64,000 nucleotides of DNA, taken from positions 214,713 to 278,712 of IMG/VR virus record IMGVR_UViG_3300030102_006934, one strand, 5' to 3'. How positions within the stretch are numbered: the first letter of the stretch is position 1; every line of letters starts with the position of its first letter. This document shows, piece by piece, positions 2,574 through 46,215 of this stretch. A model generated the notes under the pieces. It saw only the letters and a program-made list of their open reading frames with translations, was not told the DNA's origin and ran no database searches. This DNA comes from a virus. The translations under genes and the position numbers were made by a program.

Positions 2574-3091
2574 AAAATTTAATACGTAAAATATTGAAAG
2601 AAGAAACAGAAGATTTTGATTGGGTTAGTGAGGTGGACACTGAACAAGATTTTGAAGATTACTTTTATGGTAAAGGTGAATACTATCATAATAGAAGAAA
2701 TGCACCAGGTATATACATCGCGAGAGATATAAAATGGTGGAAAAATTGGATTATGAATGTGTATGGAGCTCATGCGGTAATTGAAGAAGATGTTGAGGAG
2801 TTTGCGGAGATGGTAAAAGAATTGGTTAATCCAATAGATGGGGGTAAGAAAGAATATACAATATTAGCTAATGATGTTTATGACTATGTTAGATCTCATA
2901 AAGGTAAAACTACTTTTCAAGAAAGTACTGGTGATATAAAGGATGCTTATGATTCTTTTGGTCTTTACGCTAATAATAATAATTTAAACATCTTACAGGT
3001 AATGGATGTATTTGATAGGTGGTTAAATAAAAGAAAAAAAGAGGGGAGACCACTACATGTTGAAGATGGTCAAAGTTTTAATATAGATTAG
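2570..3091 (+). CDS. Hypothetical protein with LKE leader
   Basis: The 173-aa acidic protein opens with MKNLIRKILKEE followed by DFDW. This is nearly the same leader as the protein starting at 4896, although the rest of the two sequences differ. LKE is a candidate (I/L)xE prohead-protease site. The body is rich in Trp, Tyr and acidic residues, with no Cys motif or membrane segment. It is coupled to the upstream HAD gene by a 4-bp overlap. No family is recognised. Confidence 0.65.
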   Translation: MKNLIRKILKEETEDFDWVSEVDTEQDFEDYFYGKGEYYHNRRNAPGIYIARDIKWWKNWIMNVYGAHAVIEEDVEEFAEMVKELVNPIDGGKKEYTILANDVYDYVRSHKGKTTFQESTGDIKDAYDSFGLYANNNNLNILQVMDVFDRWLNKRKKEGRPLHVEDGQSFNID

Positions 3092-3102
3092 AGAACGGAC
3101 TA

Positions 3103-11229: not shown

Positions 11230-12003
11230 ATGGACGTACAAAATCAAACAATAGAAAACAAAAGTGTACAAGTAGAAGTACCTTATGATATAATACCGTT
11301 ACCTTCAAAAGGTTTATTATATCCAGGTAGAAAACCTAATTTAGAGGTTGAATACTTAACCGCTATGGATGAAAACATTCTAACATCTCCTAATCTTTTA
11401 CAGTCAGGTAAATTTATAGAGGTTTTAATGAAAAGAAAAATAAGAAAAGGCCAAGTATCTCACGATGATTTGTTACTCGGTGACAGGAATTCTATCTTAA
11501 TATGGTTAAGAGCTACTGGTTATGGTGAAAAATATCCAGTAACAATACAAACACCAGAAGGACTAGAAATAGAAACAGAGGTAGATTTAACAAAATTGAA
11601 ACAAAAAGAATTAGGAGCAGAACCAGACGATAATGGATTATTCGATTTTACCTTACCCCAATCTAAGAAAAGAATTAAATTTAGGTTATTAACGGTAAAA
11701 GATGAAGATGAATTAACAAAAAGAGAAAAAGCTCAAGAAAAAAGAAAGGCTGAATTTTCAGACAGCTTAACACACAAGTTAGGTACACATATCATGAGTA
11801 TTGATGGTCGTAATGATAAAGAATGGATACATAATTTTGTTAGAGTTATGCCGGCTAGAGATTCATTAGCTTTAAGAAGATATATAAATGATATCGAACC
11901 AGGTGTCGATTTATCTATCACAGTGGAGGGTCCTGGAGGTGACCCTATAGACACATTTCTTGTCCTTGGACCAGACTTTCTTTGGCCTGAGTTCGGAGTA
12001 TAA
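11230..12003 (+). CDS. T4 gp26-like baseplate hub subunit
   Basis: The 257-aa protein has the layout of the T4 baseplate hub family: an N-terminal IPLPSKGLLYP motif (residues about 22-32), a VEYLTAMDENIL segment, LLLGDRNSILIWLRATGYG (about 80-99) and a C-terminal REYIND-type helix (RRYINDIEPGVD). Related genes sit next to the tape measure in T4-like phages, as here. The zinc-ribbon Cys residues seen in some homologues are absent. Its end overlaps the next ORF by 44 bp in a different frame. Confidence 0.75.
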   Translation: MDVQNQTIENKSVQVEVPYDIIPLPSKGLLYPGRKPNLEVEYLTAMDENILTSPNLLQSGKFIEVLMKRKIRKGQVSHDDLLLGDRNSILIWLRATGYGEKYPVTIQTPEGLEIETEVDLTKLKQKELGAEPDDNGLFDFTLPQSKKRIKFRLLTVKDEDELTKREKAQEKRKAEFSDSLTHKLGTHIMSIDGRNDKEWIHNFVRVMPARDSLALRRYINDIEPGVDLSITVEGPGGDPIDTFLVLGPDFLWPEFGV

Positions 12004-13881: not shown

Positions 13882-16737
13882 TTGGCATTTAATCCTAAAG
13901 ATCTTAACGCTTATAAAGAGTTTCTAAACACACAACAGAAAATTTCGGAGACAATTAGTAAAGGAACTAAATCTTTTGCTGTTGGAGCTAAAGATGCCAT
14001 AAAAGCTTCTAGAGATTTAAATAAAATAAAAAAAGATTTAAATAGGTTAGAAAAAGAAGAGAAGGAACTTTTAGAAAGGAAAAAAGACCTTTCAGGAGAA
14101 GAATTAAGAATAGCTGAAGAAAAACTAAAAGTAATTCAGGCAGAAAAGAAAGCCACTGAAGATATACTCAAAAAACAAGAAGCCTTATCTAAAGCTCTAT
14201 CTAGTCAAGTAACTAGTGTTAAAAATTTAGCAGTAGCCTTAGGTAGAGATACATACAAAGCTTTAAGTAAAGTAACTGTAAAAGCTAAAGAACTAGGTAA
14301 AGAATTCTCAGAGTATGATGATGCTATGAGAAGAACCGCTGTCAACATCGGTGTTGTTGGTAAACAGTTTAATCAAATGCGTAAAGAAGCTTATAAAGCT
14401 TCCTTGATGACACAAAGAATAGGTGTTAGTGCAAAAGAACTCGTACAAAATTATGGTGAATATGTAGATGAGATAGGTAGATTAGTACCCTTATCTAGAA
14501 GTGCTGGTAAAGCATTAGCTTACATGGGACAAGGTACAGCTTTAGGAGCTCAAGGAGCTGCTCAAATGGCAGCTAGTTTAGATAACTTTGGTATGTCTAT
14601 TGAAACTAGTGCTAAATTCGTGGAAGACATAGTTAATATGTCTGAAAAGATGGGTGTTAATTCTGGTAAAACATTAAAAATGTTAAATCAGAATTTATCT
14701 AAAGCGGCTACTATGAACTTTAATGGTGGTGTGAACGCAATGGCTAAAATGGCAGCAACCGCCGTCAAGTTAAAAGGGGACATGGCTAGTACACTAAGTT
14801 TCGCAGAAAGAATGTACCAACCCGAAGAAGCTATTAAAACCGCTGCTAGTTTCCAAATGTTAGGTGGAGCTATTGCTGGTATTGGTGATGGTTTACAACT
14901 AATGTCTAAATCAATGTTTGACCCAGAAGGTCTTCAAAAAGATATAGCGAAAGCTGCTGCTTCTTTATTCAAAATGGAAGACGGACAAGCTAAAATATCT
15001 GGTGTAGTGGCATCGAATAAGTTAAGGGTAATGGCTGAACAACTTAACATGTCCAAAGAGGAACTAGCCGCTCAAGGTCAAATATATAAAAAACAAGAAC
15101 AAATAGGTAAATCACTTTCTCGTAGAATGGACCCTGAAACTAGAGAGTTTATTAAAACAATCGCGACTTATGATGAAAAATCTGGTGGGTTTGTAGTTAA
15201 AGCGGATGGTAAAACTATACAAGTTGCTAATCTACAACAGTCTACAGCTCAGATGTTAATGTCTGAGAACAAAACCTTAGAAAAAAGAGCAGAAGATGCA
15301 CAAGGGTTTATGACTAGGATTAAAAATCTAATGGAGTCTTTAAAGAACTTAGGTTTCGCTTTCTTTGCTGGTTTAGATAAAACTATAGGGCCTATGTTAG
15401 ACCGTTTAACGGGTAGAGGTGAAGGTACTTTAACTAGTTTCGCTGAGAAGTTCGAGAGTTGGGGTGAACAATTAGGTACTTGGCTTAGTACTGGATTGGT
15501 ACCATTAATGGAAACTGGAATACCTATGGTTCAAAAATCCGCTAAGTTTGTTGTTTCTACAATACAACAAGGAATTAATTTTATAAAATCAATTTATAAA
15601 TCAGCTGAAGAGTTAATGGTTAAACATGTAATTCCTTTCGTAAAGGATGTCGCTGAATATGTAAAACAATTTTGGGCAGATAATGGTTCCTCCATAAAAG
15701 AACTTGGTGCAGCGATGGCAAATGCTACTACAGCAATGTTACCAGTATTAGTTAAGGTGGCTAAATTTTTAGGACCTGGTGGTATATTTGCTATATTATT
15801 AATGAAAAAATTCCCAGGACTTATGGGTGGTTTATTCCGAGGGTTAGCTAATAGTACCAAAGGTGTATTTAACAGATTATTTGGAATGCCTGGATCTAGT
15901 CCCGCTAGACCTAGTTATGTAGTACCCATGGGTGGTGGAGCTATGGGCGGTGGAGCTATGGGTGGTAGAGGTGGACCAATGATGGGACCAATGGGAGCAA
16001 CGGGAGCTAGAGGAGCCGCCACAACAGGAAAATTCGCTTCGGGACCTAGAGCTGGACAAAGGTATTATCAAGTAGGTGGACAATTTGCTTCTGCGGCACA
16101 ATACAAAGCCGCTGGGGGGTTGTCGGCTGCGGGTAGACTTGGTAACATGATGGGTGCTGCTTCACCCTACATGATGTTAGGTGGTTTAGCTTTAGGAATT
16201 GGTAGACAATTCTTGGATAATACTAATTCTGCTGCTGGAAAAGCGATGGGAATGGGTGCTGGTATTCTAGGTGGTGCTGGTACTGGAGCAATGTTAGGTA
16301 GTATGATAGGACCAGTAGGTACCTTAGTTGGAGGTATTGTAGGTGGTTTAATTGGTGGTGTTAATTCTTATATGAATGAATACGTTACAAAAGAAGTACC
16401 TAAAATGTCTAACGACAAAGCCATTTCAAAACTAGATAATATGACCTTCGCGTCAAATAAAACTGGTTACATGGCAGATGGACAAATTGCTGGTGGTGGT
16501 TCTGTAATTTTTTCCCCTGCAGGTACTTATTTTACAGATAAAAAGGATTACGTCACCGCATCAACAAACAACCCTCTAAATGGAAATGGCGGAACCACTA
16601 ACGGTAATATCACAGTCAACGGTACAATAAAATTAGATACAGGAAACTCGTCAATGCAAGTTGACTTCGAGAAAATGAGTGCTTCTGAAAAACAACAATG
16701 GGTACAAATAGTTGTGGCGGGAATGAAAAATATGTAA
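13882..16737 (+). CDS. Tail tape measure protein (TTG start)
   Basis: The 951-aa protein has a long N-terminal coiled coil (about 40-120, KKDLNRLEKEEKELLERKK) and a mid-region rich in Ala/Met helices. Hydrophobic segments at about 605-660 and 755-840 (AGILGGAGTGAMLGSMIGPV) are typical of tape measures that cross the host membrane. It presumably sets tail length and is ejected with the DNA, like T4 gp29. The only plausible start is TTG at 13882 (giving MAFNP); an in-frame TAA at 13867 rules out an upstream ATG. Sister genes start ATGGCNTTT, so this may be a one-base change from ATG. Confidence 0.85.
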   Translation: MAFNPKDLNAYKEFLNTQQKISETISKGTKSFAVGAKDAIKASRDLNKIKKDLNRLEKEEKELLERKKDLSGEELRIAEEKLKVIQAEKKATEDILKKQEALSKALSSQVTSVKNLAVALGRDTYKALSKVTVKAKELGKEFSEYDDAMRRTAVNIGVVGKQFNQMRKEAYKASLMTQRIGVSAKELVQNYGEYVDEIGRLVPLSRSAGKALAYMGQGTALGAQGAAQMAASLDNFGMSIETSAKFVEDIVNMSEKMGVNSGKTLKMLNQNLSKAATMNFNGGVNAMAKMAATAVKLKGDMASTLSFAERMYQPEEAIKTAASFQMLGGAIAGIGDGLQLMSKSMFDPEGLQKDIAKAAASLFKMEDGQAKISGVVASNKLRVMAEQLNMSKEELAAQGQIYKKQEQIGKSLSRRMDPETREFIKTIATYDEKSGGFVVKADGKTIQVANLQQSTAQMLMSENKTLEKRAEDAQGFMTRIKNLMESLKNLGFAFFAGLDKTIGPMLDRLTGRGEGTLTSFAEKFESWGEQLGTWLSTGLVPLMETGIPMVQKSAKFVVSTIQQGINFIKSIYKSAEELMVKHVIPFVKDVAEYVKQFWADNGSSIKELGAAMANATTAMLPVLVKVAKFLGPGGIFAILLMKKFPGLMGGLFRGLANSTKGVFNRLFGMPGSSPARPSYVVPMGGGAMGGGAMGGRGGPMMGPMGATGARGAATTGKFASGPRAGQRYYQVGGQFASAAQYKAAGGLSAAGRLGNMMGAASPYMMLGGLALGIGRQFLDNTNSAAGKAMGMGAGILGGAGTGAMLGSMIGPVGTLVGGIVGGLIGGVNSYMNEYVTKEVPKMSNDKAISKLDNMTFASNKTGYMADGQIAGGGSVIFSPAGTYFTDKKDYVTASTNNPLNGNGGTTNGNITVNGTIKLDTGNSSMQVDFEKMSASEKQQWVQIVVAGMKNM

Positions 16738-22132: not shown

Positions 22133-22456
22133 ATGGGAACTAGTTATTTTGATAGGTACGGTAATTTTAAAAATAAGGATAAATTTAGTTTTATACCCTT
22201 TATAAAGTTATCAAAAAAACCAACAGATTTAAATATAAAATGGAAAGAAACCAAAAGACTAGATAAAGTTTCAAATGACGTTTATGGGTCACCCTTTTAT
22301 GGGTGGTTAATATTACTAGCCAACCCAAAGTATGGTGGGTTGGAGTTTGATATTCCAGATGGTGTTTCACTAAGGATACCATTCCCATTAATGGAAAGTT
22401 TACAAGACTACCAAAAAAAAGTAGATAATTATATTTTACAAAATGGCAGAGAGTAG
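22133..22456 (+). CDS. gp53-like baseplate wedge protein with LysM-like fold
   Basis: The 107-aa protein shows the LysM-type tail-adaptor pattern RLDKVSNDVYGSPFYGWLILLANP (about 42-65), then LEFDIPDGVSLRIPFPL. This is the usual form in T4 gp53-like proteins and the related X proteins of other contractile tails. Such proteins help join baseplate wedges to the hub. It overlaps the giant hub gene by 14 bp, so the two are probably made together. The identification is good for the domain and moderate for exact equivalence to gp53. Confidence 0.75.
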   Translation: MGTSYFDRYGNFKNKDKFSFIPFIKLSKKPTDLNIKWKETKRLDKVSNDVYGSPFYGWLILLANPKYGGLEFDIPDGVSLRIPFPLMESLQDYQKKVDNYILQNGRE

Positions 22457-25400
22457 TACACAGTTTGGTTGTAATGACTTAGCTAAAAATGTTTCTGGTT
22501 GTGAGGAGAATGGTAACATAAGACTAATCAACCCAAACGCACAAATAGATGAGGAAGGTGTTAAAAATGAAGACCTAGTCATGTATGCGACATTAAGAGC
22601 TAGAGTAAAAAACAAAAGTTTATTATTAGACAAAGACGATGAGTTATGGAATGAATTGACTTTTATAAAAGCCAAGTCAAACGCTCCAGGCCAAGCCGCT
22701 GAAGGTTCTGCAAACGCTACACCAGAAAATACTAGTTTTTTAACCACTAATTGGACCGACATAGGTTCATCAGATATGTTATTTGAAAAAGATCATGAAA
22801 CTTTTGGTATAACTAATATAAATGTGGATATACAGGCAGACTTTATACCAAAAATAAGTATAGATTTCGTAGATTTAAGAGGAGCCACTTTATTTGAACA
22901 AGGATCTTGTTCACCTTATGCTAGTTTCTTTCACCAACCGTACCCAGTATTTGAGTTAGTACTTAAAGGTTATTATGGTAGTCCGATAAAATATCAGTTG
23001 ATGGTCCAAGACTTTAAAACATCTTTTGATGCTAGTACTGGTAATTACGTTTCTAAAGCTGAAATGATAGGTTTTAACTACGCCTTCTTAGGTGATATTA
23101 TGTTAGCTTACGTTTTAGCTGTACCCTATATAGAAGGGTCAGATGAGATACTAACATCAATATACCAAGACTATTTAAATTATTATAAAGAAAGAGGTTT
23201 TAATGAGGGTAGGAATAAATTCGAACCCTTAAGTGCTGATGATAACTCACCATTAACACTTTATAATTACGTAAGAAAATTACAAGAACTAGAAGGCCAA
23301 GGTAATTCAGACAAAGGACCTATTGCAGAAATACAAAGTTCATCTGAGTTATTTACCATAGAAAACCTAGATAAGTTCCAAGAGATATTAAATGATATTG
23401 ATGAATTTATAGATAAAGATTTTGATGAGTCTTGGAAAAAAAAGGGTGGTAAGAATGTAAATAATTTATATTACTATGGTGATGGTTCAGTTGGTGATAC
23501 TGGTGTAAACACTGATAATTTATTGGACGTTTATAGTAATTTTTTTGGTTCGGTTGGTAAGATAACCACCTCAATAGCTGTTTATAATGATTTAGTCGGT
23601 GATTCTGGTTCTTCATCTTTAACACCAATAATATCAAACCCAAAAGTAGAAAAAACATCTACTTACTTGTTAAGTTTAGATTTAGAAGGTCTAAAGAATG
23701 AAATGAATAATAAGTTGGATGAAATTTCTTTGGACTTAAAGACTAAAAGAAAAGAATTTATAGATTTAGCTAATGCTAAAATAAAGTCTTCCGTAGGTTT
23801 CGTACCCACTATAAGAAGTTTTTTTACTACTTTAATCGCTAACACAGAATTATTTTTAGAACTACTTAGGACCACGTCTTACGATGCAGAACAATATCAT
23901 CAAAAAAACAAAGATTCTGATAAAATAAGGTTTAAAAATGAGGAGGACGTTCCAGTATCGGATATTGTTTATGCTTGGCCTACATATACAGAAATAAGAC
24001 AAAGTGGGACTAGAGATGAAACGGAAGTAGAAGTTTACCCAGGAACTAACCCAAAGTTCCAAAATTGGCCTGAAGTAATATTCGTAGAAAACCTATTAAA
24101 AGCTCTCACTGAAATGAACAGAAAGTTACAAGAAGGTGATGGAGAGGAAGTTAATCCAGAAGTAGATCCATATGATGGTATACCAGGTAGAGATAACTAT
24201 TTCCCAGTCAATGCCATGGAAACACCTCTAGGTGCTAGAGACGCTAATAATAGTTATTATAACCTAAACTCAAAAGATGCTGTCATAAGGTCTTTGGGTG
24301 AAAGATTTATACTATACAGTAATGTTACAGGTGTTAACTCTAATTTTTTAAATACATCGGTGATAGCTTCAGCTAAAAATAGTTTTAACGAAACACTATT
24401 ATTAAGGGGTAAATATGCTATACAACCCGTAGAATTTAACTTAAATAAATCCTTTAATCCCTCTAAAAAATATCAGATATTTCCAGGTATAGAAAAATTA
24501 AATAACGGCGTTTTAACACCTTATTTTAGTGCTGGACATTATTTTAAACCTAAAAAGTTTGGTGGTGAAGATTTAAACATTAATACAAATCTAACTTATA
24601 GCCAAAACTATAAAAAAATAGGTGGTATCAAAGGTTACCCATATATAGATGATAGAAAATTCTTCGGAAACTACGTAAGTCCTATGGGTTTACCTTTATC
24701 TAGAGAAGCTAGTGAAACTGAAGATACTTATAACAATGATTGGAATAATATTGGTTATTTAATGGAAGGTGATGGTGAGGTTAAAAGTAGTAATAACCTA
24801 ACTTACGAAGAATTAACACCATCATCTGAATTACGTACACATGTAATTAGTTTCAAAATACCTAAAATAACCCAAACAGATTTTAGAACAAAATTTGAAA
24901 AAAGTTTTAAATATGAGGGTAATTTAGGTAATAAAAAAAGTTTTACTAACGATGAAAATGTGGTTGTTCTAGAACCACTTTATTACACTAAAAAAATGGT
25001 AATAATATTTGTTGATAAGAATACCACAAAACCAGGTTACAGTATTGAAAATCACATATCACAGGTACCAAAAAATGTTAGAGACAAAGCGTGGATTATA
25101 TTATGTACTAATTATGTTGGTTACGATTATAAGGGTAAAAATAAATCTGCTAGAGCAGAGTTTTTAAGTAATTATCTTGAGACTGACAATTATCTACAAC
25201 TAGTAAACATAGTTGTAGAAATACTTTATAAAGCAAAAGGAAACCCAACCCGAAAGCTGACTTCAGAAGAAATAGACTTATCATCAGGTATAGATTCATT
25301 TTTTGATATAACCTTATTAGGGTATGGATCTGGTTCTCTTGAAGCCTTTTTATATGGAGACACCCAAGAAACTTTAGACAATGTAGAAATAGTTGGTTTA

Positions 25401-28400
25401 GCTGACCCTAATCTATTTGGTGTTTCTGGGACAAGTTATGCTGATATAAGTGGAGACCTTACTATAATTAATGAATTTGGAGTTGCCAACCGTTTTGAAA
25501 AACAAACATTAGAAACAGTAAAACAACATTTAAATTTTCCACAAAAAGGGTTTAGAATGGTTTGGGGTAGTGATACCCAAGTAAATGTATTTGGGGGTGA
25601 TGAAACACCCAATCAGTACCAAAAATTAGAAAATTATATAAAAAATACTTCATCTACGGGTAAGTCTGGAAAATCTTCTAAAATAAGTGGATTAAATAAA
25701 AGTGAGGCGCTGAAATCTTGGTTTGAAAATTACGGTGAAGAAATAGTGGAAGATATACAAAAAACAGACACTTTACTGTTCCCTTCCGAAACCACTGTTT
25801 CAAAATCAAAACCTAGTTCAGAAAACAACTTTGAAGTTGGTAGAGAATTTATACCAGAAAAAGAATTTGCAATTTGGGCAGGCCTCGGTTTAACCGAAAG
25901 ACTATCAAAAAATTGGGAGTATCTAGGTAAATTAGAGGCACACAATATGTATAACTCTTTAAGTAATCAAAATTTAATTGGTAATTTACTCAGTTCTCTA
26001 GATAACGTTAAGGAATTACATAAACAAATAATAGAGAAATTAGGTATCACCACATCAGACATATATGACAACAATTACTACAATCAATTATATAGATATA
26101 ACAAACCAATTACGATAAATAGAGTTTCAAAAGAAAAGGGTGGTGCTATAAAAGTTCTACCTAATATTCATGACATGAAAGGATCTGACTTAGTTAGGCT
26201 AACTAGGTTTGACAACATAGCTGGTTCAGGTTGGGATTTCGGTAAGGAATCACCTGTCTATTTTTGGTATAAAAATGCATCTGGTAGAAGAGGTTTCGGT
26301 ATCGACCCAGAATCTACTTTTATCACGTCTAGTGTTTTCGAAGATTTAAATAAATATTATGGGTCAGAACCTAAAGGTGATAATAAGTTAGATGTTAGTA
26401 AAAATAGCACACAATACGTGGATGGTTTGTTAGCTAGAGATTTTAATATAAGAGAAGGTACACAAACATTAATGCATAGGTATTCTAAGGGTATGGCCAG
26501 AACAGGTTTATTCAATACAGAGGGCACCTTTTTAACAAACGGTTCTAGAGCTGGTATAGATGGTTCTGTTGACAATTTCGGTGAACCCATGATAAACACG
26601 TTTACACAAACAAATAATACTATTAGGGATAAATTATTAAGTTTGGACGTATGGCCTAATAATAACTTTTCTTATAGTAGTTTTGACAATATAGGTGGTA
26701 GATTTTTGAAAATAGGTGGTGAGTTTACTAGAAAATACATGAAAACACCGAGTGAATTCACACTTACTACTACTGGTGATAACCACAAACCCACAAATGT
26801 AAGAGCTAAAAAATCTGGGTTAAACCCTTTAGGAACCACCAATATAACTTGGAATACACTAAATTTAAATACACCAATATATGAAACATACACCTCAGAG
26901 TCGGCTAAATTAAGAGATAGTTTAGGTAAAGATGAGGATTCTAGTCCAAATTGGAGGAATTATAGAGCATCCGTATTATCTTACAGTAATTGGGCCAGCA
27001 GTGAAATAACTAAAGTGGAAGAAGCAAAAGAATCTGCTAATGCTGAAGGTAATAATGATAAATTAAAGGTATCTTCTGGTTTTGGTTTAAACGCTTCTCT
27101 TTCACCATTCTTTAATGCACCCATGAGTAGAAAACTAGAAAATTTAAATTTCTTTAATCAAGGTGCTACCATAACTGAGTCACCGTGGTGGAGACACAAT
27201 ATGCCATCTAATCAATCAGGTTCAAATTATTGGAGTGATAATAAAACTTATTACTCATTCTTTGGGGCTGGTGTATTCAATGAAGTAGAAGGTGATGATT
27301 TTGTTAATAACGCAAACGATGGTAGTACCTATAATAGACAACCTTCTGTAACCAATAAACTTAAAGGTGATGGTGATAGTGGTGGACAAGCAAAGTTTAT
27401 CAGTAAGGCACCTCTTTTTGTTGGTATTGGTAATGACTTAGATAGTTACAACACTACTTCTAAATTTTTTCCATCTGGTAATGGGTCTCAATTTAATTAT
27501 TTTGGTACATTGGGAACATCTGAAGATAAAATATATAAGGTAGAAAATGGTGATAATGGTTTTGTTGACCAAGGTACTTTAAGTCCAGTCGCTCAACAAA
27601 ATTACTATGGCAGTTCCGTTGACTGGTCAGTAAAACTAAATAGAAAAAATCAATATTTAGGTAGAAAATACCAATTAACAAATCATAACAAAGATGATTT
27701 TAGTATCACAAGAGATTCAAACTCTGGAACTTTTGGTGCAGATGGAGAAATAGATTTAGGTAATATAACGGTAGACCCAAACTTAACTAGTTATAATAAA
27801 ACTAAAGCTTGGAAAGGGTCTTTAGCTTATTTATTCCTATCCAACCAATTCCACAAACCATGGACAGGTTTATACACTAATACTAATAAAAATTTAGGAC
27901 CCCAAGGTTATTTTGGGATGGCATCTTTCAACGCTCAAATGCCTAGACATTCCGTATTAATGTTAGGAGCAGTATTATGGAGAATGAGAGAGTCAGGATT
28001 ATTAGAATCTGATGATAATAAATGGAATTTACCACCAGAAATAACAAATGGTTTAGACCCAGTTAATTACCCTATAACACCTAACAAGCTTGATTTAGCA
28101 TATAGTAATACCAGTATAGGTATAGACACTAAACAATTTTTATTGAGATCAATAAATAAGAACAGTTCCATAACCACAGAAGAATATGTGGATGCAATAA
28201 ACACAGAATTAAATCCATTAGATTCTGTTTGGCCAACAAATCATAATGTCAGACCACCACAGATATCTCTAGTATCCAATCCAAGTGGTGATAATAACGG
28301 AGGTTATTTATTTGGAAATAATAAATTCATGACCTTCCCTAGAGCTGATGAGTGGCCAGTACCTAATTTAGGTATGATTGGAGCCTATGATTTTTTCGCT

Positions 28401-31400
28401 GACAAAAAGGCTAAAAATCCATTTAAAAATCAATACAGAATATTTACTCCAATATTAGCTAATTCAGGCATGAACGCTTTAAGGTATAACACACAAGATT
28501 TTAGGTTTAGAAACACCCAAAAACAGGTAGACGCATTTAAACAACAAATCTTAGAAGTATTAAAAGCACAAGAATCAGAATTGAACGCTGTGGCAAATGA
28601 AGCTGCAGATAATACAGCACATAATGCTAGGGTAGCTGGTCAAACTGACGAAGCTGCAGAAGCCGCAGGACAATCACAGGTTAAAAAAGCTGAAGAATTA
28701 TTAAATGAGGTTAAAGAGAAAGCTGATAAGAAAGCTTTAGAAGCTGCTGTTGTGACAATGGATAGTATATTAAAAAAGATACCTAATTTAGCTGGAACTG
28801 AAGAAAGTTTTACTAGATTAACCTCTTTAGTTTTCGAGGGTAGAGAATTTATTAATGGTGCACTACTCAATACCGTAGATAATAGTATACTTGAACAAGA
28901 TATATACCTAAAAAATGATACTATTAAAAGAATTATAGATCCATCTTTTGGTGTTGAAATCGCTGATTTCAGTACTATGACTTATTTTAGGATGGATCAA
29001 GTGGATGATGGTAGAAGTTCATTATGGAAACAAACCGATGATGTGGCAGCTTACAACGAAAGTTCTTCAGCTTTTCCTACAATTCGTAATCTATATAAGT
29101 CTAATGAAGGAATCAACACACAGATTAATGGTGAAGAGGAGGCAATTGTCGCCAAATTAGCTGGTGCTGAAGTACCGAGTACACAAAATGTTATTAAAAC
29201 GGTTATAGATACACCAATGGAATTGTTAAATATTACAGAAAATGGTGTATTCATTAGGCAGGTTGAGGGTCAGTTAATAAAAGCTTCAGTAATTAATATA
29301 GAGGAGGTTATTGGTACTGAAAAAACCGTTATATATAGAACTTACGAAGGTAAGGCTACTTTTGATTTATACGCCAATAGAACGGGTGAACTACTAAAAA
29401 AAGGTGAAACAGATACACCCTACTTTCTAACCCAAGATTTACTAGATTCAGACGGAGATGTTTTGTATGAAGCTGGTACAGGGTATAAGGAATGGCCTAT
29501 AACAGAAGGTGAAGTAAATATAACACAAGATAGTGAAAACAAGTGGAAATTAGTAACCCCAAGAGTATTAGAAATACAAGGATATACCCCAGTTAGTGGT
29601 TCTAGAAAATTAACCAATGAATTTGATCAAAAAAGATACATTGGTAAAAGCTCAAATATAAAAATGCCAAATGGTGTATCAGTCCCTGGGGGTAATACTT
29701 ATATTGGTGATAGAAGTATAGAAGCACAATTGAATATATGGCGAGACAATTCTTGGGGTATTGATTGGATTGAAAGTGATGGCTCTCCAAATGGTAGTTC
29801 AGAGACGGTGAGGTCGGGTTACCATAAATATAGTGGATATTATAAAGTATTTACAGATGGATCTTATGTGGTTTACAAGTCGGGTAAAGTAAGAGCAGTT
29901 GGTTCCTCCGATTTTGATGGTGTAACTATTAAAGCCACTAAATCTAGAGCTTTAAAGTTAACATTAGAAGGTTTAACTTCGGGGGAAAAGACTTTATTAA
30001 ATTTAGAGACAGCTTATGCTTATGGTGATAATGACGATGCAGTAGATACAGTAGATTTAGTAAAAAGTGAGCTTACTTTATTAAATGACCCAGAAATAGA
30101 CCAAGATACTTATAAAGATTCTTTAACAAGAAGGATACAAAGAAGAAGTTCTTATAGGGGGTATCTAAGGGGTTACCTACCTATGGGACCAGAAATATGG
30201 TTTATGCCCACAGAAGTTAAAAAAATATTTATAAAAGAGTTTGAAGATTATGTGGGTGACATGAATAATTGGGTAGACCCAAACGAATCAACCGATAATT
30301 TTGATTACGCATTACAAACTATAGACCCATTAAACTTCCCAAGATACGAGAATAATAATAAATTCGGTGTTTTTAAAAATGAAATCATATACCCAACAGC
30401 TTTTGAGGAGATAGGGACAGTTGGAACTGACGCTCCATCAGTATTGAGGTTAAGTACAAATAAGATAAGAGAAGCTTATGGTGATGGTTTAGATTTAACC
30501 AAAGATAAAATGCCTTTAATCCCTCAACCACTATTAGATTTTTATAATTTATTCGAAATTAATAAGGCAACAATACCAATAAATCAATTACGAAAATACA
30601 GTAAATTCCAAACCCAAATAACAAGAGATTTTAATAAAGGAGATACTCCTGAAATATACCCTTTTATTGAACAAAGAACTAAATCATTTGATTCCAAAGG
30701 ATTACCAGCAAATTCAAAGTTAAATGATGTATATAACTCTTTGTTTGGATCTTATTATTTTGTAACATCTACCACCCCTAGAACTTTTAGTGGTGAGTTT
30801 CCACTACAGGAAATAGATGGCGAAATGGTAGAAACCACACATGATTATTTTACCTTTAATAAAAGAGAAATGTTTGCCTTCTTAAAGGGGTTCGTCAAAG
30901 AATTGTCGTCACCAGAAATAAAAGGAGCTTTCGAGCAGTCTTTAAAAGATGATTATATGAACGAAATACAAGGTGAAGTATTAGGTGCTGGACAAGATGA
31001 TGATATTAGACTATCTATTTATAGGTCACTTAAAACATTATATGATAAATATATTTCAGGTTCTGCCGCGGGACAATCAAGTGGAAAGGGTGAAGATAAA
31101 ACAAGAATGTTTTACAACCCAATAGGTAGGAATAGATTATTTATCGATCATTTTGTTTTTGTTAATAGAGTGAATGCTGACATTGGGGACGTAGCTTTAG
31201 TTAAATTAGAAACAGTGAACAACCTTTTCCAAAATACACAAAATAGTATTTTCGAAATTTCATCAGATGTTTTAAGTAGTAGTAATTTTATATTTTTACC
31301 TTTACCTGGTTACGTAGATTTAAGTGCTGGTTTAACTAAAACTAATGTCGATAGAAATACTGAATTTCCTAACTTTGTGGCTGAACAAGCTAACAACATG

Positions 31401-34400
31401 TTTAGACCTATATCAGACCAAGGAACATTTAGTGATATAGATAGTAAGTTAGGCTCACCAATGTGGTACTCTATGTATATAGGTGGTGTTTCTAGACAAC
31501 TAAAATTAAAAAATGATGATAACCAACCAGGGTGCTTAACAGAACTAAATATCAACGGTAAAAAAGATCAGTCAGATGATGGATTCTTAATGAGCCCATT
31601 TCCAAACTCAAAACCAGCTCCACCAGATTTTGTTAGTACTACTAATCCAGACAATACCCTAACTAATAGTAATTCCACCTCAAAAGGTATTACAGCTTTC
31701 AAAGTAAGGTTTGGAGCGGAAAATCAAAGTCACTTCACTGGGATAAATTTAGACCAGTTAGAATTTAAGGATACTAATGAAAGTATTGTAGCAACACAAG
31801 CAATAGCTGAAAGAGCTTCCAATGGTGGTGCTGGTGGTTTTATCGCTAAAGGACAAGACCTATATCAAATATTCTTAAATAGAAGTTATACCGCTAAAGT
31901 AGAGTCATTGGGTAATGCGATGATTCAACCATTCCAATATTTTCAATTAGAAAACGTACCGATGTTCTTTGGTAGTTATCTTATAACTAAAGTTTCTCAT
32001 AATATTAGACCTAATCACATGAAAACTAGTTTTGAGGGGGTAAGAATGAGTCACGCAACAGTACCAATAGTAGAAGACTTTATTTCTACATTTAACATTA
32101 AACCTTCTAAAGAGGGAGCTAAAAGAAAATCTTTAAAGGGTACTGGTAGTAATTCTAACAAAGCTAGTAATTATAGTTATAGTTCCTCATCAAGTTCAAC
32201 AACAGGTATGAAATCAGTTAGTGGTTTATATAGTCCAATAGAAATAGCGACAACCACTGTAACAGACGAGCAAGGTAACACAAAAAATATAACCAAGAAA
32301 ATAAGGGAAGGTTTAGTAGCTAGAGGTTTTAATTTGAATCAAGTACTCACAAAAGGTGATTCTAGAAAATATACAGATGCAAATGGAAATGTAATAGATG
32401 TTAAACAAATAAAAGATGGTTCTTTTTATAATGAAGTTACTAGAATAAATGGTAAGAACTGGATGGCTGGAGATTGGCCTAAATATTCAGGTAGTGAAGA
32501 AAGAGGGCCTAAAGGTATTCAAATACATTGGACCGCTGGTTGGACTTTAAAACAAACAACTACTGTCTTAGCTAATAGAGGTTTAGCCTATAGTATATTA
32601 ATAGGTGAGGATGGTAAGGCTTATCAAATCACCAATCTAGATAAAAAAGGTGCCCACGCTGGTTGTGTTAGTGACACAGTAGCTTGTCATAGAGGAATGA
32701 ACTCTAAATCTTTAGGTATTTCTTATGTAGGTGGTATTGAAGGAGGTACTGAAAGATCAATAAATAATGGTTATTTAAGAACTTGGGAAGATTGGCAGAC
32801 AGAAAGTAAAACAGTACCTTTTTGTCCGAAAGGTACTAAAAAGAACAAAGAGGGTATTGCTAGTTGTTCCGATACTGAAGCAACAGACCCATATGACGTA
32901 GTATCTTCTAGGGGTAGGGTATTCAAACCAAAAGGCCAATGGGAATCTTTAGTAGATTCTATATTAATGATGAAAGTTAAGTTCCCCAGAATGCAGTGGA
33001 TTACTGGACACAACTTTACCAACGCTGGTAAAGCAGACCCTGGTATAGGGTTTCCATGGGACAAATTAGTTAGAGACCTAAAAACAAGGGGATGGAACAA
33101 GGAAGACGCTGACGATGACCCAATTATCGTTACTGAATGGCCAATCACCAGAGGAAAAGGTAATAAGGCAGGTCAAACAATAGTGGACGGTGGACTTTAC
33201 CAACAAGATAGTATTGATGCTTTAGGGGAAGAATTAAAATCTGCTGGTGTAGAGTATGGTGCCGCACAAAATGAATATGACATAGATGATGTCTTAGTAG
33301 CTCAAGAAGAAAGGGAAGATGACGCTCAAGAAGGCCAAACAGTAGACCAAATAGCTTGTAGAATATTAAATGGACCATTTAAATATGGACCTAACGATAC
33401 TGGTAAAGGTTTAATAGAAGATTTAGGTTTAACAAAACAGCAAGCAGCAGGTGTTGTTGGTAATCTACAAGGTGAGTCAGGATTAATACCAGATAGAATA
33501 CAAGGAGCTGGTACTAAAACGGGCACTATTGACCAATCTGGAAAAGGTGGATATGGTTGGGCTCAATGGACCTTCCCTAAATTAAAAGAAGATTTTATTG
33601 CTAGTGCGAAAGCGGTAGGTGTTGACCTAAATAAAACACCAGCTGATATGGATATCAATTATAAGTATTTGGTTGAGTTCATACAATCAAGTGGTAAGTT
33701 AGCGATACAAAAAGATAAATACGGTAATATAGCTACAGAACTGGGCATAGATAAATGTGGTGGTTTGGAAGGGTTTAAAAAAACAAAAACAGTAAGAGAA
33801 GCTACAGTTTATTTTATGGGATGTTATGAAAGACCAGCAGTTCAAGACGAAAAAGAAATAGTAAAAAGAACAACCTTTGCTAATCAAGCCTACCAAACTT
33901 GTGAATCATCAAATACGGCGGTGACAAATGATGATACTGAAACCGTAACTGAAAATAGTATTATAGTACATTCTAATGTTAAAAACTTAAATGAGGCATT
34001 AGGTATAGAGGGTCCTTACACAGCTAACTACCCACCACCAGCTGGAGCAATACCACAAAGTACGATAGACAAATTAGTTCTATTGAATGTTGAATATAAA
34101 AATCATTTAGGACAAGAGTGTAGGGGACAATTAGTTACTTATAAAGTTGCGGAAGAGAAAATGAAAAATATATTTAAAAAACTCAAACAAATAGAGTACC
34201 CAATAGAAAAATGTGATCTACCAGTTAAATATAATTGGAATGACGAAGACTTAATGAATAAAAACATAACGAATAGTTTTAACTATAGAGCAATAACGGG
34301 TGGAAACGGTATAAGTCCACATGGTACAAAACCAGTTTTAGATTTAAACCCACTATTTAATCCATACTTTAAACCAGGGTATATCAACAACGATAAGTCC

Positions 34401-34739
34401 CAAGGGGTATCACCAGGACCATATAGTGAATTAACACCATCTAAAACACCTTATAAAACTGTTGAATCTTATTGGAAAAATACAATACCACCCACTTTTG
34501 GGTTATTTGGTAGTTCATACCCAGTAGCCTTTAACTCAGTTACCAAGACAATGAATGTGGTAGATAAAAAATGGATACCAAATGGTGAAGAAATAACTAC
34601 AACAGGACCCAACGCGGCAGGTAAAAAATCTAAAATAGTACAAATATTTAAAGAAAATGGTTTTAATAGATGGGGTGGAGCTTGGACAGACCAAATAGAT
34701 GGACAACATTTTGAGATTGCTAACACTGGTAATATATAA
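22443..34739 (+). CDS. 4098-aa baseplate hub protein with three peptidoglycan-hydrolase domains
   Basis: This is the largest gene in the window. The N-terminal about 230 residues hold a repeat-like hub motif (LRGATLFEQ...PYPVFELVLKGYYG). Residues about 2020-2110 form an Ala/Glu-rich coiled coil. A hub-type block at about 3140-3195 contains GNAMIQPFQYFQLENVP. Three lytic domains then follow. An amidase-2/PGRP domain (about 3340-3550) has H3362 in IHWTAG, H3523 in TGHNFT and D3532 in KADPG. A tail-lysozyme-type domain (about 3640-3810) has GVVGNLQGESGL with Glu3678, then GYGWAQW. An M15-type peptidase domain (about 3860-4098) has SPHG (H3960), LDLNP (D3967) and QHFE (H4089). Inference: it opens the host wall at DNA entry by cutting glycan, amide and peptide bonds. 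Confidence 0.85.
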   Translation: MAESSTQFGCNDLAKNVSGCEENGNIRLINPNAQIDEEGVKNEDLVMYATLRARVKNKSLLLDKDDELWNELTFIKAKSNAPGQAAEGSANATPENTSFLTTNWTDIGSSDMLFEKDHETFGITNINVDIQADFIPKISIDFVDLRGATLFEQGSCSPYASFFHQPYPVFELVLKGYYGSPIKYQLMVQDFKTSFDASTGNYVSKAEMIGFNYAFLGDIMLAYVLAVPYIEGSDEILTSIYQDYLNYYKERGFNEGRNKFEPLSADDNSPLTLYNYVRKLQELEGQGNSDKGPIAEIQSSSELFTIENLDKFQEILNDIDEFIDKDFDESWKKKGGKNVNNLYYYGDGSVGDTGVNTDNLLDVYSNFFGSVGKITTSIAVYNDLVGDSGSSSLTPIISNPKVEKTSTYLLSLDLEGLKNEMNNKLDEISLDLKTKRKEFIDLANAKIKSSVGFVPTIRSFFTTLIANTELFLELLRTTSYDAEQYHQKNKDSDKIRFKNEEDVPVSDIVYAWPTYTEIRQSGTRDETEVEVYPGTNPKFQNWPEVIFVENLLKALTEMNRKLQEGDGEEVNPEVDPYDGIPGRDNYFPVNAMETPLGARDANNSYYNLNSKDAVIRSLGERFILYSNVTGVNSNFLNTSVIASAKNSFNETLLLRGKYAIQPVEFNLNKSFNPSKKYQIFPGIEKLNNGVLTPYFSAGHYFKPKKFGGEDLNINTNLTYSQNYKKIGGIKGYPYIDDRKFFGNYVSPMGLPLSREASETEDTYNNDWNNIGYLMEGDGEVKSSNNLTYEELTPSSELRTHVISFKIPKITQTDFRTKFEKSFKYEGNLGNKKSFTNDENVVVLEPLYYTKKMVIIFVDKNTTKPGYSIENHISQVPKNVRDKAWIILCTNYVGYDYKGKNKSARAEFLSNYLETDNYLQLVNIVVEILYKAKGNPTRKLTSEEIDLSSGIDSFFDITLLGYGSGSLEAFLYGDTQETLDNVEIVGLADPNLFGVSGTSYADISGDLTIINEFGVANRFEKQTLETVKQHLNFPQKGFRMVWGSDTQVNVFGGDETPNQYQKLENYIKNTSSTGKSGKSSKISGLNKSEALKSWFENYGEEIVEDIQKTDTLLFPSETTVSKSKPSSENNFEVGREFIPEKEFAIWAGLGLTERLSKNWEYLGKLEAHNMYNSLSNQNLIGNLLSSLDNVKELHKQIIEKLGITTSDIYDNNYYNQLYRYNKPITINRVSKEKGGAIKVLPNIHDMKGSDLVRLTRFDNIAGSGWDFGKESPVYFWYKNASGRRGFGIDPESTFITSSVFEDLNKYYGSEPKGDNKLDVSKNSTQYVDGLLARDFNIREGTQTLMHRYSKGMARTGLFNTEGTFLTNGSRAGIDGSVDNFGEPMINTFTQTNNTIRDKLLSLDVWPNNNFSYSSFDNIGGRFLKIGGEFTRKYMKTPSEFTLTTTGDNHKPTNVRAKKSGLNPLGTTNITWNTLNLNTPIYETYTSESAKLRDSLGKDEDSSPNWRNYRASVLSYSNWASSEITKVEEAKESANAEGNNDKLKVSSGFGLNASLSPFFNAPMSRKLENLNFFNQGATITESPWWRHNMPSNQSGSNYWSDNKTYYSFFGAGVFNEVEGDDFVNNANDGSTYNRQPSVTNKLKGDGDSGGQAKFISKAPLFVGIGNDLDSYNTTSKFFPSGNGSQFNYFGTLGTSEDKIYKVENGDNGFVDQGTLSPVAQQNYYGSSVDWSVKLNRKNQYLGRKYQLTNHNKDDFSITRDSNSGTFGADGEIDLGNITVDPNLTSYNKTKAWKGSLAYLFLSNQFHKPWTGLYTNTNKNLGPQGYFGMASFNAQMPRHSVLMLGAVLWRMRESGLLESDDNKWNLPPEITNGLDPVNYPITPNKLDLAYSNTSIGIDTKQFLLRSINKNSSITTEEYVDAINTELNPLDSVWPTNHNVRPPQISLVSNPSGDNNGGYLFGNNKFMTFPRADEWPVPNLGMIGAYDFFADKKAKNPFKNQYRIFTPILANSGMNALRYNTQDFRFRNTQKQVDAFKQQILEVLKAQESELNAVANEAADNTAHNARVAGQTDEAAEAAGQSQVKKAEELLNEVKEKADKKALEAAVVTMDSILKKIPNLAGTEESFTRLTSLVFEGREFINGALLNTVDNSILEQDIYLKNDTIKRIIDPSFGVEIADFSTMTYFRMDQVDDGRSSLWKQTDDVAAYNESSSAFPTIRNLYKSNEGINTQINGEEEAIVAKLAGAEVPSTQNVIKTVIDTPMELLNITENGVFIRQVEGQLIKASVINIEEVIGTEKTVIYRTYEGKATFDLYANRTGELLKKGETDTPYFLTQDLLDSDGDVLYEAGTGYKEWPITEGEVNITQDSENKWKLVTPRVLEIQGYTPVSGSRKLTNEFDQKRYIGKSSNIKMPNGVSVPGGNTYIGDRSIEAQLNIWRDNSWGIDWIESDGSPNGSSETVRSGYHKYSGYYKVFTDGSYVVYKSGKVRAVGSSDFDGVTIKATKSRALKLTLEGLTSGEKTLLNLETAYAYGDNDDAVDTVDLVKSELTLLNDPEIDQDTYKDSLTRRIQRRSSYRGYLRGYLPMGPEIWFMPTEVKKIFIKEFEDYVGDMNNWVDPNESTDNFDYALQTIDPLNFPRYENNNKFGVFKNEIIYPTAFEEIGTVGTDAPSVLRLSTNKIREAYGDGLDLTKDKMPLIPQPLLDFYNLFEINKATIPINQLRKYSKFQTQITRDFNKGDTPEIYPFIEQRTKSFDSKGLPANSKLNDVYNSLFGSYYFVTSTTPRTFSGEFPLQEIDGEMVETTHDYFTFNKREMFAFLKGFVKELSSPEIKGAFEQSLKDDYMNEIQGEVLGAGQDDDIRLSIYRSLKTLYDKYISGSAAGQSSGKGEDKTRMFYNPIGRNRLFIDHFVFVNRVNADIGDVALVKLETVNNLFQNTQNSIFEISSDVLSSSNFIFLPLPGYVDLSAGLTKTNVDRNTEFPNFVAEQANNMFRPISDQGTFSDIDSKLGSPMWYSMYIGGVSRQLKLKNDDNQPGCLTELNINGKKDQSDDGFLMSPFPNSKPAPPDFVSTTNPDNTLTNSNSTSKGITAFKVRFGAENQSHFTGINLDQLEFKDTNESIVATQAIAERASNGGAGGFIAKGQDLYQIFLNRSYTAKVESLGNAMIQPFQYFQLENVPMFFGSYLITKVSHNIRPNHMKTSFEGVRMSHATVPIVEDFISTFNIKPSKEGAKRKSLKGTGSNSNKASNYSYSSSSSSTTGMKSVSGLYSPIEIATTTVTDEQGNTKNITKKIREGLVARGFNLNQVLTKGDSRKYTDANGNVIDVKQIKDGSFYNEVTRINGKNWMAGDWPKYSGSEERGPKGIQIHWTAGWTLKQTTTVLANRGLAYSILIGEDGKAYQITNLDKKGAHAGCVSDTVACHRGMNSKSLGISYVGGIEGGTERSINNGYLRTWEDWQTESKTVPFCPKGTKKNKEGIASCSDTEATDPYDVVSSRGRVFKPKGQWESLVDSILMMKVKFPRMQWITGHNFTNAGKADPGIGFPWDKLVRDLKTRGWNKEDADDDPIIVTEWPITRGKGNKAGQTIVDGGLYQQDSIDALGEELKSAGVEYGAAQNEYDIDDVLVAQEEREDDAQEGQTVDQIACRILNGPFKYGPNDTGKGLIEDLGLTKQQAAGVVGNLQGESGLIPDRIQGAGTKTGTIDQSGKGGYGWAQWTFPKLKEDFIASAKAVGVDLNKTPADMDINYKYLVEFIQSSGKLAIQKDKYGNIATELGIDKCGGLEGFKKTKTVREATVYFMGCYERPAVQDEKEIVKRTTFANQAYQTCESSNTAVTNDDTETVTENSIIVHSNVKNLNEALGIEGPYTANYPPPAGAIPQSTIDKLVLLNVEYKNHLGQECRGQLVTYKVAEEKMKNIFKKLKQIEYPIEKCDLPVKYNWNDEDLMNKNITNSFNYRAITGGNGISPHGTKPVLDLNPLFNPYFKPGYINNDKSQGVSPGPYSELTPSKTPYKTVESYWKNTIPPTFGLFGSSYPVAFNSVTKTMNVVDKKWIPNGEEITTTGPNAAGKKSKIVQIFKENGFNRWGGAWTDQIDGQHFEIANTGNI

Positions 34740-44394: not shown

Positions 44395-46215
44395 ATGGCA
44401 CAGAAAAAAATTAATTACTTAGCTAGAAATTTCGCTGACGTTAGGTCAGAGTTATTTACATTCATTAAAAAATATTATCCTGAAATATTTTCGGATTTTA
44501 GTGATTCCTCAGTTGGTACAATGATGATAGAGTTAAATGCGGCAGTTGCCGACATGTTATCTTACCATACCGATAGAATGTATAACGAAACTCAAATAGA
44601 GTACGCTCAAGAAAGAAAGTCACTATTGAGTATGGCTAGGACAATGGGTATTAAAATACCTGGACAAAGACCAGCCGTAACATTAGTAGACTTTCAGGTA
44701 ACAGTACCAGTTTTCGGTGATAGTTACGACACTAGATATACACCAGTATTAAGGAGTAATGCACAAGTACTGGGTGGGGGGCAGGTTTTCGAAAATTTAG
44801 AAGATATAGACTTCAATTCACCATTTACTGCTGGAGGTATACCCAACCGTACAATAGTACCCAATTTTAATGGTAATGGTGATTTGGTCAACTACACTTT
44901 AACTAAAAGAGAGTTAGTAGTAAACGGTAAGACAACTTATTTCAGTAAGTCTATTAGTCCGTCAGATGTTAAACCATTTTTACAATTAGTGTTACCACAA
45001 ACAAATGTCTTATCGGTTGATAGTATTATAACATTAGAAAACCCAACCGATGGTATTCCAAATTTAGATGTGTTTAATAATCCTCAATTTAGGTGGTATC
45101 AAGTAGACTCTTTAGCAGAGGATAAAGTTTTTGTTGATGATAATTCTAGGACTAGTGATAATAAATCCATCACACCAGCCAAATGGAAAAACGTAACCCA
45201 AAGATTTATAACTGAATACACAGACACTGGATATTGTAAAATTACTTTTGGTAGTGGTACTGGTAATGAAACATCACCTATTATAGACATTGCTAATAAC
45301 TACGGTAATTTAATAAACACCACTGCTTTAGGTGAGATACCTAAAGAAGGTAACACTATGTATGTTAAGTATAGAGTCGGTGGTGGTACAGGTTCTAATA
45401 TAGGTCCTGGTGCAATAACTAGTTTAGGTAACTTTAGTTTGGAGGTAGATGGACCAAACTCTACAATTAGTTCAAGAGTTAGTAAGACATTAAGAGTTTC
45501 AAACCCAATACCCGCCGTAGGGGGATCTAATTCACCCTCATTAGAAGAAATTAGAAATTTAGTTAAATATAATTTCGCTTCACAAAATAGAGCTACAACT
45601 ACTAAAGATTATGTGGCACAAGTATTGAGAATGCCAGGTAAATATGGACTACCTTTTAGGTGGAGTGTAGAAGAAATTTCTAACAAAATAGTTATAACAA
45701 CTATAGGTTTAAATGCCGAAAACAAATTAACCAACGTATCTTCAAGTACATTAAAACAAAATCTATCAACTTGGTTGGCAGATTATAGAATGATAAATGA
45801 TTATGTAGAAATAACAGATGGTAAAGTAATAAACTTAGGTTTAGATCTAGACATATTTGTGGATAAGAGTTTTAATCAATCTGAGGTTGTTAATAATGTA
45901 ATTAGAAGTGTTATAGAATATTTTGACGTTAAAAAATGGTCCATGGGACAAGACATATTTGTTTCAAATTTAGTTGAGACAATAAACAATGTTGGTGGGG
46001 TATTAAACTTAGTTAATTTTAAAGTGAATAACTTAGTTGGGGGTAACTATTCCAACAACAGAACCAATCAGACAACATTAAGTTTTGATGATCAATCTAT
46101 ACCGGCTGTCTATGGTTTAGATATGAGTGATTACACTATATTCGGACAAAATAACGGAATGTTCGAAATTAAAAACCCAAATAGAGATATTACTGTTAGA
46201 GTAAAAACAAACTAA
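44395..46215 (+). CDS. gp6-like baseplate wedge protein
   Basis: The 606-aa protein starts with the typical gp6/BppJ-type helical region: INYLARNFADVRSELFTFIK, then FSDSSVGTMMIELNAAVADML and TQIEYAQERKSLLSMARTMG. The C-terminal half has the characteristic QNRATTTKDYVAQVLRMPGKYG segment. gp6 forms the iris ring of the T4 baseplate (660 aa there). It overlaps the next gene by one base. The identification is strong from motif order and from the gp25 neighbour. Confidence 0.85.
   Translation: MAQKKINYLARNFADVRSELFTFIKKYYPEIFSDFSDSSVGTMMIELNAAVADMLSYHTDRMYNETQIEYAQERKSLLSMARTMGIKIPGQRPAVTLVDFQVTVPVFGDSYDTRYTPVLRSNAQVLGGGQVFENLEDIDFNSPFTAGGIPNRTIVPNFNGNGDLVNYTLTKRELVVNGKTTYFSKSISPSDVKPFLQLVLPQTNVLSVDSIITLENPTDGIPNLDVFNNPQFRWYQVDSLAEDKVFVDDNSRTSDNKSITPAKWKNVTQRFITEYTDTGYCKITFGSGTGNETSPIIDIANNYGNLINTTALGEIPKEGNTMYVKYRVGGGTGSNIGPGAITSLGNFSLEVDGPNSTISSRVSKTLRVSNPIPAVGGSNSPSLEEIRNLVKYNFASQNRATTTKDYVAQVLRMPGKYGLPFRWSVEEISNKIVITTIGLNAENKLTNVSSSTLKQNLSTWLADYRMINDYVEITDGKVINLGLDLDIFVDKSFNQSEVVNNVIRSVIEYFDVKKWSMGQDIFVSNLVETINNVGGVLNLVNFKVNNLVGGNYSNNRTNQTTLSFDDQSIPAVYGLDMSDYTIFGQNNGMFEIKNPNRDITVRVKTN

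Follow-up and report, generated by a model that had tools for sequence, protein, structure and literature searches.

Sequence, conservation and selection support the presence of a tail-hub-type protein of 4098 aa to which three different hydrolase domains are fused. It is encoded in a 64,000-nucleotide stretch (the window), positions 214,713 to 278,712 of IMG/VR virus record IMGVR_UViG_3300030102_006934, a record of 380,343 bp referred to here as G000. The protein is likely, in our view, to serve as the baseplate hub of an uncultivated jumbo phage that is T4-like, has a contractile tail and probably infects Bacteroidota, and at the same time as a virion-associated lysin with three hydrolases per chain. 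The ORF runs uninterrupted from its ATG to its stop; a check for a frameshift, or for several ORFs read as one, returned a single open frame of 4098 codons. Full-length comparison revealed two conserved blocks (approximately residues 90 to 650 and 2850 to 3210), separated by a variable middle of exceptional length in the window protein relative to its homologues. The layout in window coordinates is as follows.

22443..34739, + strand: hub protein with three C-terminal hydrolases (single 4098-aa ORF)
22500..24392, + strand: N-terminal conserved hub region, approximately residues 20 to 650, common to the hub family and to the split N-part ORFs of a sister clade
24393..30962, + strand: variable middle, approximately residues 651 to 2840, weakly conserved, without annotated domain and far longer than in relatives
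30966..32081, + strand: C-terminal hub domain, residues 2842 to 3213, the family hallmark, with an AF2 model closest to contractile-tail hubs
32082..32474, + strand: Ser/Lys-rich linker, which evolves fast
32475..33122, + strand: Amidase_2 domain, residues ~3345 to 3560 (H3362, Y3383, H3523, K3530, D3532)
33378..33917, + strand: Phage_lysozyme2 domain, residues ~3646 to 3825 (catalytic Glu E3678)
34047..34736, + strand: Peptidase_M15_4 domain, residues ~3869 to 4098 (H3960, D3967, D4086, H4089; ~70-aa insertion)

Three Pfam families, and no others, scored above their curated cut-offs in the protein, each within the last 750 residues: Amidase_2 (residues 3355 to 3447; 33.9 bits, cut-off 26), Phage_lysozyme2 (3657 to 3818; 74.1 bits, cut-off 28.2) and Peptidase_M15_4 (4054 to 4092; 39.3 bits, cut-off 25). 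With the amidase segment as the sole query, the Amidase_2 match reached 42.1 bits and spanned the domain. The original prediction of three catalytic signatures in one frame was borne out by these matches, and every residue it named (H3362, H3523 and D3532; E3678; H3960, D3967 and H4089) was located as stated. Further inspection added Y3383 and K3530 in the amidase, which thus has all of its Zn ligands together with the catalytic Tyr and Lys, and D4086 in the M15 domain. The lysozyme glutamate, E3678, lies in a GNxxxES motif and is invariant in an alignment of Phage_lysozyme2 family members. The Pfam match to M15_4 covers only the C-terminal half of that domain, which holds the second motif. 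The half containing H3960 and D3967 was established by alignment to four independent full-length M15_4 homologues, in which H3960, D3967, D4086 and H4089 (SxHx6D ... DxxH) are invariant and against which the ~70-aa insertion is seen to separate the motif halves.

A search of PDB sequences identified phi29 gp13 (3csq/3csr; E 6.5e-5) as the relative of known structure nearest to the lysozyme domain. The M15 domain gave a weak match to Ply500 (2vo9; E 0.19) and nothing better; 2vo9 is an L-Ala-D-Glu peptidase, and the M15 domain may have either L-Ala-D-Glu or D,D specificity. The amidase domain was without a match in the same search. An AF2 model of the hydrolase region (pLDDT 45) folded in its lysozyme part only, the input alignment for the amidase and M15 domains being two sequences deep, and Foldseek returned no match to this model. 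Each of the three domains was recognized by Pfam; the AF2 model resolved the lysozyme but not the amidase or M15 domain.

The fusion is conserved in an independent contig, IMG/VR 3300027861_000443 (L007, identical to L017), which encodes the C-terminal 1800 residues of the window protein in one ORF and is 76% identical to it over the last 1198 residues. The three hydrolases occur there in identical order, each above its cut-off, and their catalytic residues, including all those originally named, are complete. Comparison of the window with this contig (NG86) gave dN/dS values of 0.09 for the hub domain, 0.17 for the amidase, 0.16 for the lysozyme and 0.22 for the M15 domain (dS exceeds 1 for the amidase and M15 domains, making their ratios rough), compared with 0.48, 0.63 and 0.61 for the linkers. 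All three enzymes are being retained, since the ratio of each is well under those of the linkers, and this comparison indicates that purifying selection is acting on each enzyme domain. These data bear on the notion that only one or two of the domains are active at entry, the others being peptidoglycan anchors or decaying passengers. Such a view could draw on the insertion in the M15 domain, on another of ~55 aa in the amidase relative to a separate amidase homologue, and on the failure of both domains to fold in AF2. We regard it as unlikely, because the metal-binding and catalytic residues are complete in both lineages and selection on each domain is so much stronger than on the linkers.

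The ~370 aa that precede the enzymes (residues 2842 to 3213) are the hallmark of a large family, for which at least 584 loci were confirmed in IMG/VR. No relatives were found by tblastn of this domain against 50,697 GenBank phage records or by tblastn of the N-terminal 2900 aa against GenBank phages, and the family appears not to have been described before. An AF2 model of the domain, built from 63 sequences, was modest (pLDDT 58). Its top PDB matches in Foldseek were the pyocin R2 hub, the P1 baseplate, contractile-injection spikes, VgrG and T4 gp27, and the best matches were almost without exception components of contractile systems (hubs, baseplates or spikes). These matches are partial (55 to 180 columns; E 4.6e-3 at best), and a profile search of PDB sequences found no hub. 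Searches of the record for Gp5_OB, Phage_base_V and PAAR spikes were negative, as were those of the protein itself for Gp5_OB and Phage_base_V; the control for the Gp5_OB search was silent. By these searches, the OB domain and beta-helix that mark the T4 gp5 tail lysozyme were not found. The following tail genes lie in the window.

11230..12003, + strand: baseplate hub-family protein (PHROG 150)
13882..16737, + strand: tape measure protein (PHROG 167), upstream in the same module
22133..22456, + strand: baseplate wedge subunit (PHROG 7145), overlapping the hub start
44395..46215, + strand: baseplate wedge subunit (PHROG 219)

A tail sheath gene lies directly upstream of the window (E 8e-7, under the Pfam cut-off). 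The baseplate context of the hub gene is supported by its overlap with a wedge-subunit gene. The hydrolases share an ORF with a conserved hub-type domain inside a baseplate module and are, as the gene is predicted, part of a tail structural protein. The original identification of this protein as a hub is supported by the fold matches and the baseplate neighbors, albeit less firmly than the hydrolase domains are, the matches being partial with E values of at least 4.6e-3. Another kind of tail protein, for example a tape-measure-linked protein or a central fiber, would be in keeping with the weak and partial matches, the negative PDB profile search and the size of a chain whose middle is mostly unannotated. 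We nevertheless think this quite improbable, as the leading Foldseek matches come from unrelated systems and are nearly all tail hub, baseplate or spike proteins, a tape measure gene already adjoins, and the hub gene overlaps a wedge gene.

It is also conceivable that the C-terminal block is cleaved off the hub and acts in lysis from within or as a free enzyme at entry. The linkers are long and fast evolving, and T4 gp5, which undergoes processing, would provide a precedent. This seems to us very unlikely given the location of the gene inside the baseplate module, the recurrence of hub-linked hydrolases throughout the family, and the resemblance of the other Amidase_2 genes in the record to lysis enzymes. 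As a baseplate hub, the reading we favor, the protein would occupy the tail tip and, like the known contractile hubs, probably form a trimer. By analogy with T4-like biology, sheath contraction would bring the tip into the periplasm, where the flexibly linked amidase, lysozyme and M15 peptidase would attack the MurNAc-L-Ala bond, the glycan strand and the stem peptide, respectively, and perforate the murein locally, allowing the tube to reach the inner membrane. Three enzymes per protomer would amount to nine if the hub is a trimer. The original suggestion that a single tip protein might dismantle murein completely is, on this evidence, a hypothesis.

Just before the hub gene lies a gene for a 1768-aa baseplate-module protein (window 16771-22077), a stretch of which weakly resembles OmpA (16.9 bits) and may bind peptidoglycan. 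A 1483-aa baseplate-module protein encoded just before a second hub of the record (G000:5007-9458) has a similarly weak stretch (21 bits); both scores are below the Pfam cut-off of 27.2.

In order to survey the hub family, ~310 loci were fetched and reduced to 195 distinct hubs whose 3' end is closed; the sample consists of the best hits to four queries and is nonrandom. A C-terminal tail of at least 100 aa follows the hub domain in 165 of the 195. Pfam analysis of 46 tails revealed VanY (18), Phage_lysozyme2 (9), Glyco_hydro_25 (8), M23 (4), Hydrolase_2 (3) and DUF2272 (2), plus others, and the window's relative was the only one of these 46 with Amidase_2. Eight local profiles, applied to all tails, detected a recognizable hydrolase in 76, and 19 of these 76 carry a peptidase followed by a glycosidase. 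By the same profiles, three enzymes were found only in the window and L017 among the 195 homologous hubs plus the window, a count that rarer triples could escape, as 89 tails match none of the eight. The longest other hub surveyed has 2488 aa, compared with 4098 aa for the window protein. Judged by these predicted domains, the C terminus of the hub family is shown to be a slot for exchangeable hydrolases. The earlier claim that the arrangement is unusual holds for the triple, which this survey found only in the window and L017, and for the outlying length; on the other hand, hydrolase tails are normal for this family, pairs occur often, and hubs with two lytic domains are reported or present in further phages of Gram-negative hosts (CBB and Cr30).

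We also noted that three hub tails (L071:3768-5081, L020:13505-14125 and L027:3600-4229) end in an SGNH/GDSL-like hydrolase, possibly an envelope esterase; the call comes from Pfam for L071 and from motifs for L020 and L027.

The remaining 30 of the 195 hubs have no tail, and in 8 of these 30 a separate Amidase_2 gene (238 to 267 aa) abuts or overlaps the hub stop, at -33 to +14 nt. This arrangement suggests how the fusion came about: the amidase part probably derives from a hub gene that fused with the separate amidase gene following it, the hub stop having been lost. A tree placed the window amidase with the separate abutting amidases (few sequences; moderate evidence). The second hub of the record (1869 aa) is without a fused enzyme and is directly followed by a separate Amidase_2 gene, apparently the prefusion arrangement (L008, G000:9783-16107). 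The lysozyme of the window is nearest to that of L027, where it directly follows the hub (41 to 45% identity), and homologues of the M15_4 domain include free-standing ones (LR756504 and MT837710) as well as domains that terminate rumen-type hub tails. The lysozyme and M15 domains would be further additions to a hub-amidase fusion.

The closest relatives of the hub (L018, L020, which is the same as L021 and L022, L024 and L027; support 0.91) form a sister clade with a split hub, in which an N-part ORF is followed by paralogous C-part ORFs in tandem. In L020 there are three C-parts, with hub domains 67 to 73% identical to one another, and its arrangement is present in four IMG/VR contigs of one genotype. 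In L342, an independent contig that is 71% identical, the C-part tails are VanY, a divergent lysozyme and a lysozyme. The loci and their parts are as follows.

L020:2376-14125, L342:3829-14348, L018:1553-10330 and L027:1-4229: split-hub loci, N-part then two or three C-parts
L020 C-parts: 645 aa with VanY; 667 aa with a tail of no recognized family; 847 aa with Phage_lysozyme2 and an SGNH-like IGTND motif
L020:7116-7580 and L342:8479-8937 (approximate): Hint/intein-like domain, at the very C terminus of the N-part

A PDB search with the SGNH-like region of the 847-aa C-part, whose motif was read by eye, was negative. The N-parts of L020 and L342 each have a complete Hint/intein-like domain at their end (AXH, 36.9 bits, above the cut-off; DnaB intein 1mi8, E 7e-4), whereas the N-part of L018 does not. 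Both Hint-bearing ORFs end in HN or YN, with no more than two residues beyond the terminal Asn, and the C-parts start with Met-Ser in all three that accompany a Hint N-part, compared with Met-Ala in the Hint-less L018. A split intein was rejected, since the N-part already ends in a complete Hint domain and no intein piece is present in the C-parts. The Hint end of the N-part and the Met-Ser starts could in principle allow one N-part to be joined to any of the three C-parts. Because one N-part accompanies three enzyme-bearing C-parts, a heterotrimeric hub is suggested. We raise as a tentative and rather doubtful idea that this clade needs several murein activities at the tip, supplied either by a triple fusion or by a heterotrimeric hub of triplicated C-parts with different enzyme tails. 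To our knowledge, the hubs known so far are homotrimeric, and a heterotrimer, if real, would be a departure from them. The sister-clade arrangement offers an alternative that can be tested, namely diversification of the hub trimer itself.

Like T4 gp27-gp5, the window protein would place a hub-linked murein hydrolase at the center of the baseplate of a contractile tail, and the model of its C-terminal hub domain matches T4 gp27 (1wth) with a Foldseek probability of 0.99 and an rmsd of 1.9 over 56 columns. T4, however, has one lysozyme, carried on gp5 with an OB domain and beta-helix, whereas the window protein has three unrelated hydrolases C-terminal on the hub chain itself, no detected Gp5_OB (control silent) and a length of 4098 aa. 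phi29 gp13 (Morphogenesis protein 1), which has a two-enzyme architecture, is likewise a tail-tip cell-wall enzyme, but it is a podovirus tail-knob protein for a Gram-positive host, has no hub fusion and carries two enzymes rather than three. The baseplate hub subunit and tail lysozyme of Caulobacter phage Cr30 (AGS81101.1) belongs to a phage of a Gram-negative host and has a Phage_lysozyme2 domain 34% identical to that of the window. Its C terminus contains an M15-like H..G.A.D / WIHIS motif, read by eye and unsupported by Pfam and PDB searches. Unlike the window protein, it is of the gp5 type with an OB domain, has 701 aa, is without an amidase and has its enzymes placed otherwise.

The gp5-like hub/tail lysozyme of Enterobacteria phage CBB, a Gram-negative jumbo phage, has a possible central M23 peptidase and a C-terminal lysozyme, and further CBB baseplate proteins have lysozyme domains (PMC5259590); compared with the window protein, it has two enzymes, 894 aa and the gp5 OB type. 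Multicatalytic lysins of gut phages contain three or more different catalytic domains per protein, for example CHAP-Phage_lysozyme2-Amidase_2 with binding repeats (PMC13284279), but these are reported as endolysins with cell-wall-binding domains and not as hub fusions. The open-licence papers searched did not describe any hub that carries three hydrolases. A 2018 review (PMC6116005) gives one catalytic domain as typical of virion-associated lysins from phages of Gram-negative hosts and treats endopeptidase domains as nearly exclusive to Gram-positive systems. If the hosts are diderm Bacteroidota, the hub family would be a broad exception to this rule, peptidase-plus-glycosidase hubs being frequent in it and the window protein having three enzymes. 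The window protein is most likely an extreme new variant of the virion-associated lysin. The family as a whole points to an exchangeable enzyme slot on the tail hub and to a gene-fusion route to multi-enzyme tips, and its domains may be a natural source of murein hydrolases suited to acting in concert.

Bacteroidota genes have A-rich upstream regions that lack the Shine-Dalgarno core. The core was found upstream of 0 of 32 ATG ORFs in the window, and the upstream regions are strongly A rich. The record encodes a bS21 ribosomal protein (G000:336334-336486; 40.4 bits), as do jumbo myoviruses that infect Bacteroidetes (PMC9723584). Genome hits to the hub domain were mixed, coming from Bacteroidota (three MAG contigs), Prochlorococcus (one SAG), and Wolfebacteria and Mycoplasmatota (one MAG each), and scans for Bacteroidota -33/-7 promoters and T4 late promoters revealed no enrichment. 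From these indirect indications, a Bacteroidota host is probable.

G000 contains two divergent, syntenic gene sets, offset by ~226 to 233 kb and 30 to 60% identical at the amino acid level, the second hub included; capsid, terminase and sheath are each present in a single copy. A 10-N gap (G000:90703-90712) lies in repeat-rich DNA that is near-identical to parts of the record end. The gap, together with the single capsid, terminase and sheath, suggests that G000 is a chimeric scaffold, in which the first ~91 kb are probably a fragment of a related phage joined to a ~290-kb genome. The scaffold junction leaves the window unaffected. Two related gene sets and a gap could raise the suspicion that the triple fusion is itself an assembly artifact, but the gap is distant from the window, the window contains no N, and L007 has the identical fusion at 76% identity; we consider an artifact extremely improbable.

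Six Amidase_2 domains are encoded in G000, in three syntenic pairs (15493, 61779, 69284, 247217, 293137 and 300821). Two of the pairs resemble lysis enzymes. One, L003/L004, has what appear to be peptidoglycan-binding repeats, and the other, L005/L006, is located next to small membrane/coiled-coil genes. That the two amidase sets are paralogues of one virus is less likely, given the gap and the single-copy capsid, terminase and sheath. L073 (IMG/VR 3300020377_000035) is 99.995% identical to G000:4466-25269. A multicopy family of related ORFs also is found across G000, at 125380, 157685, 217815 (window 3103-4896), 325102, 343991 and 369117.
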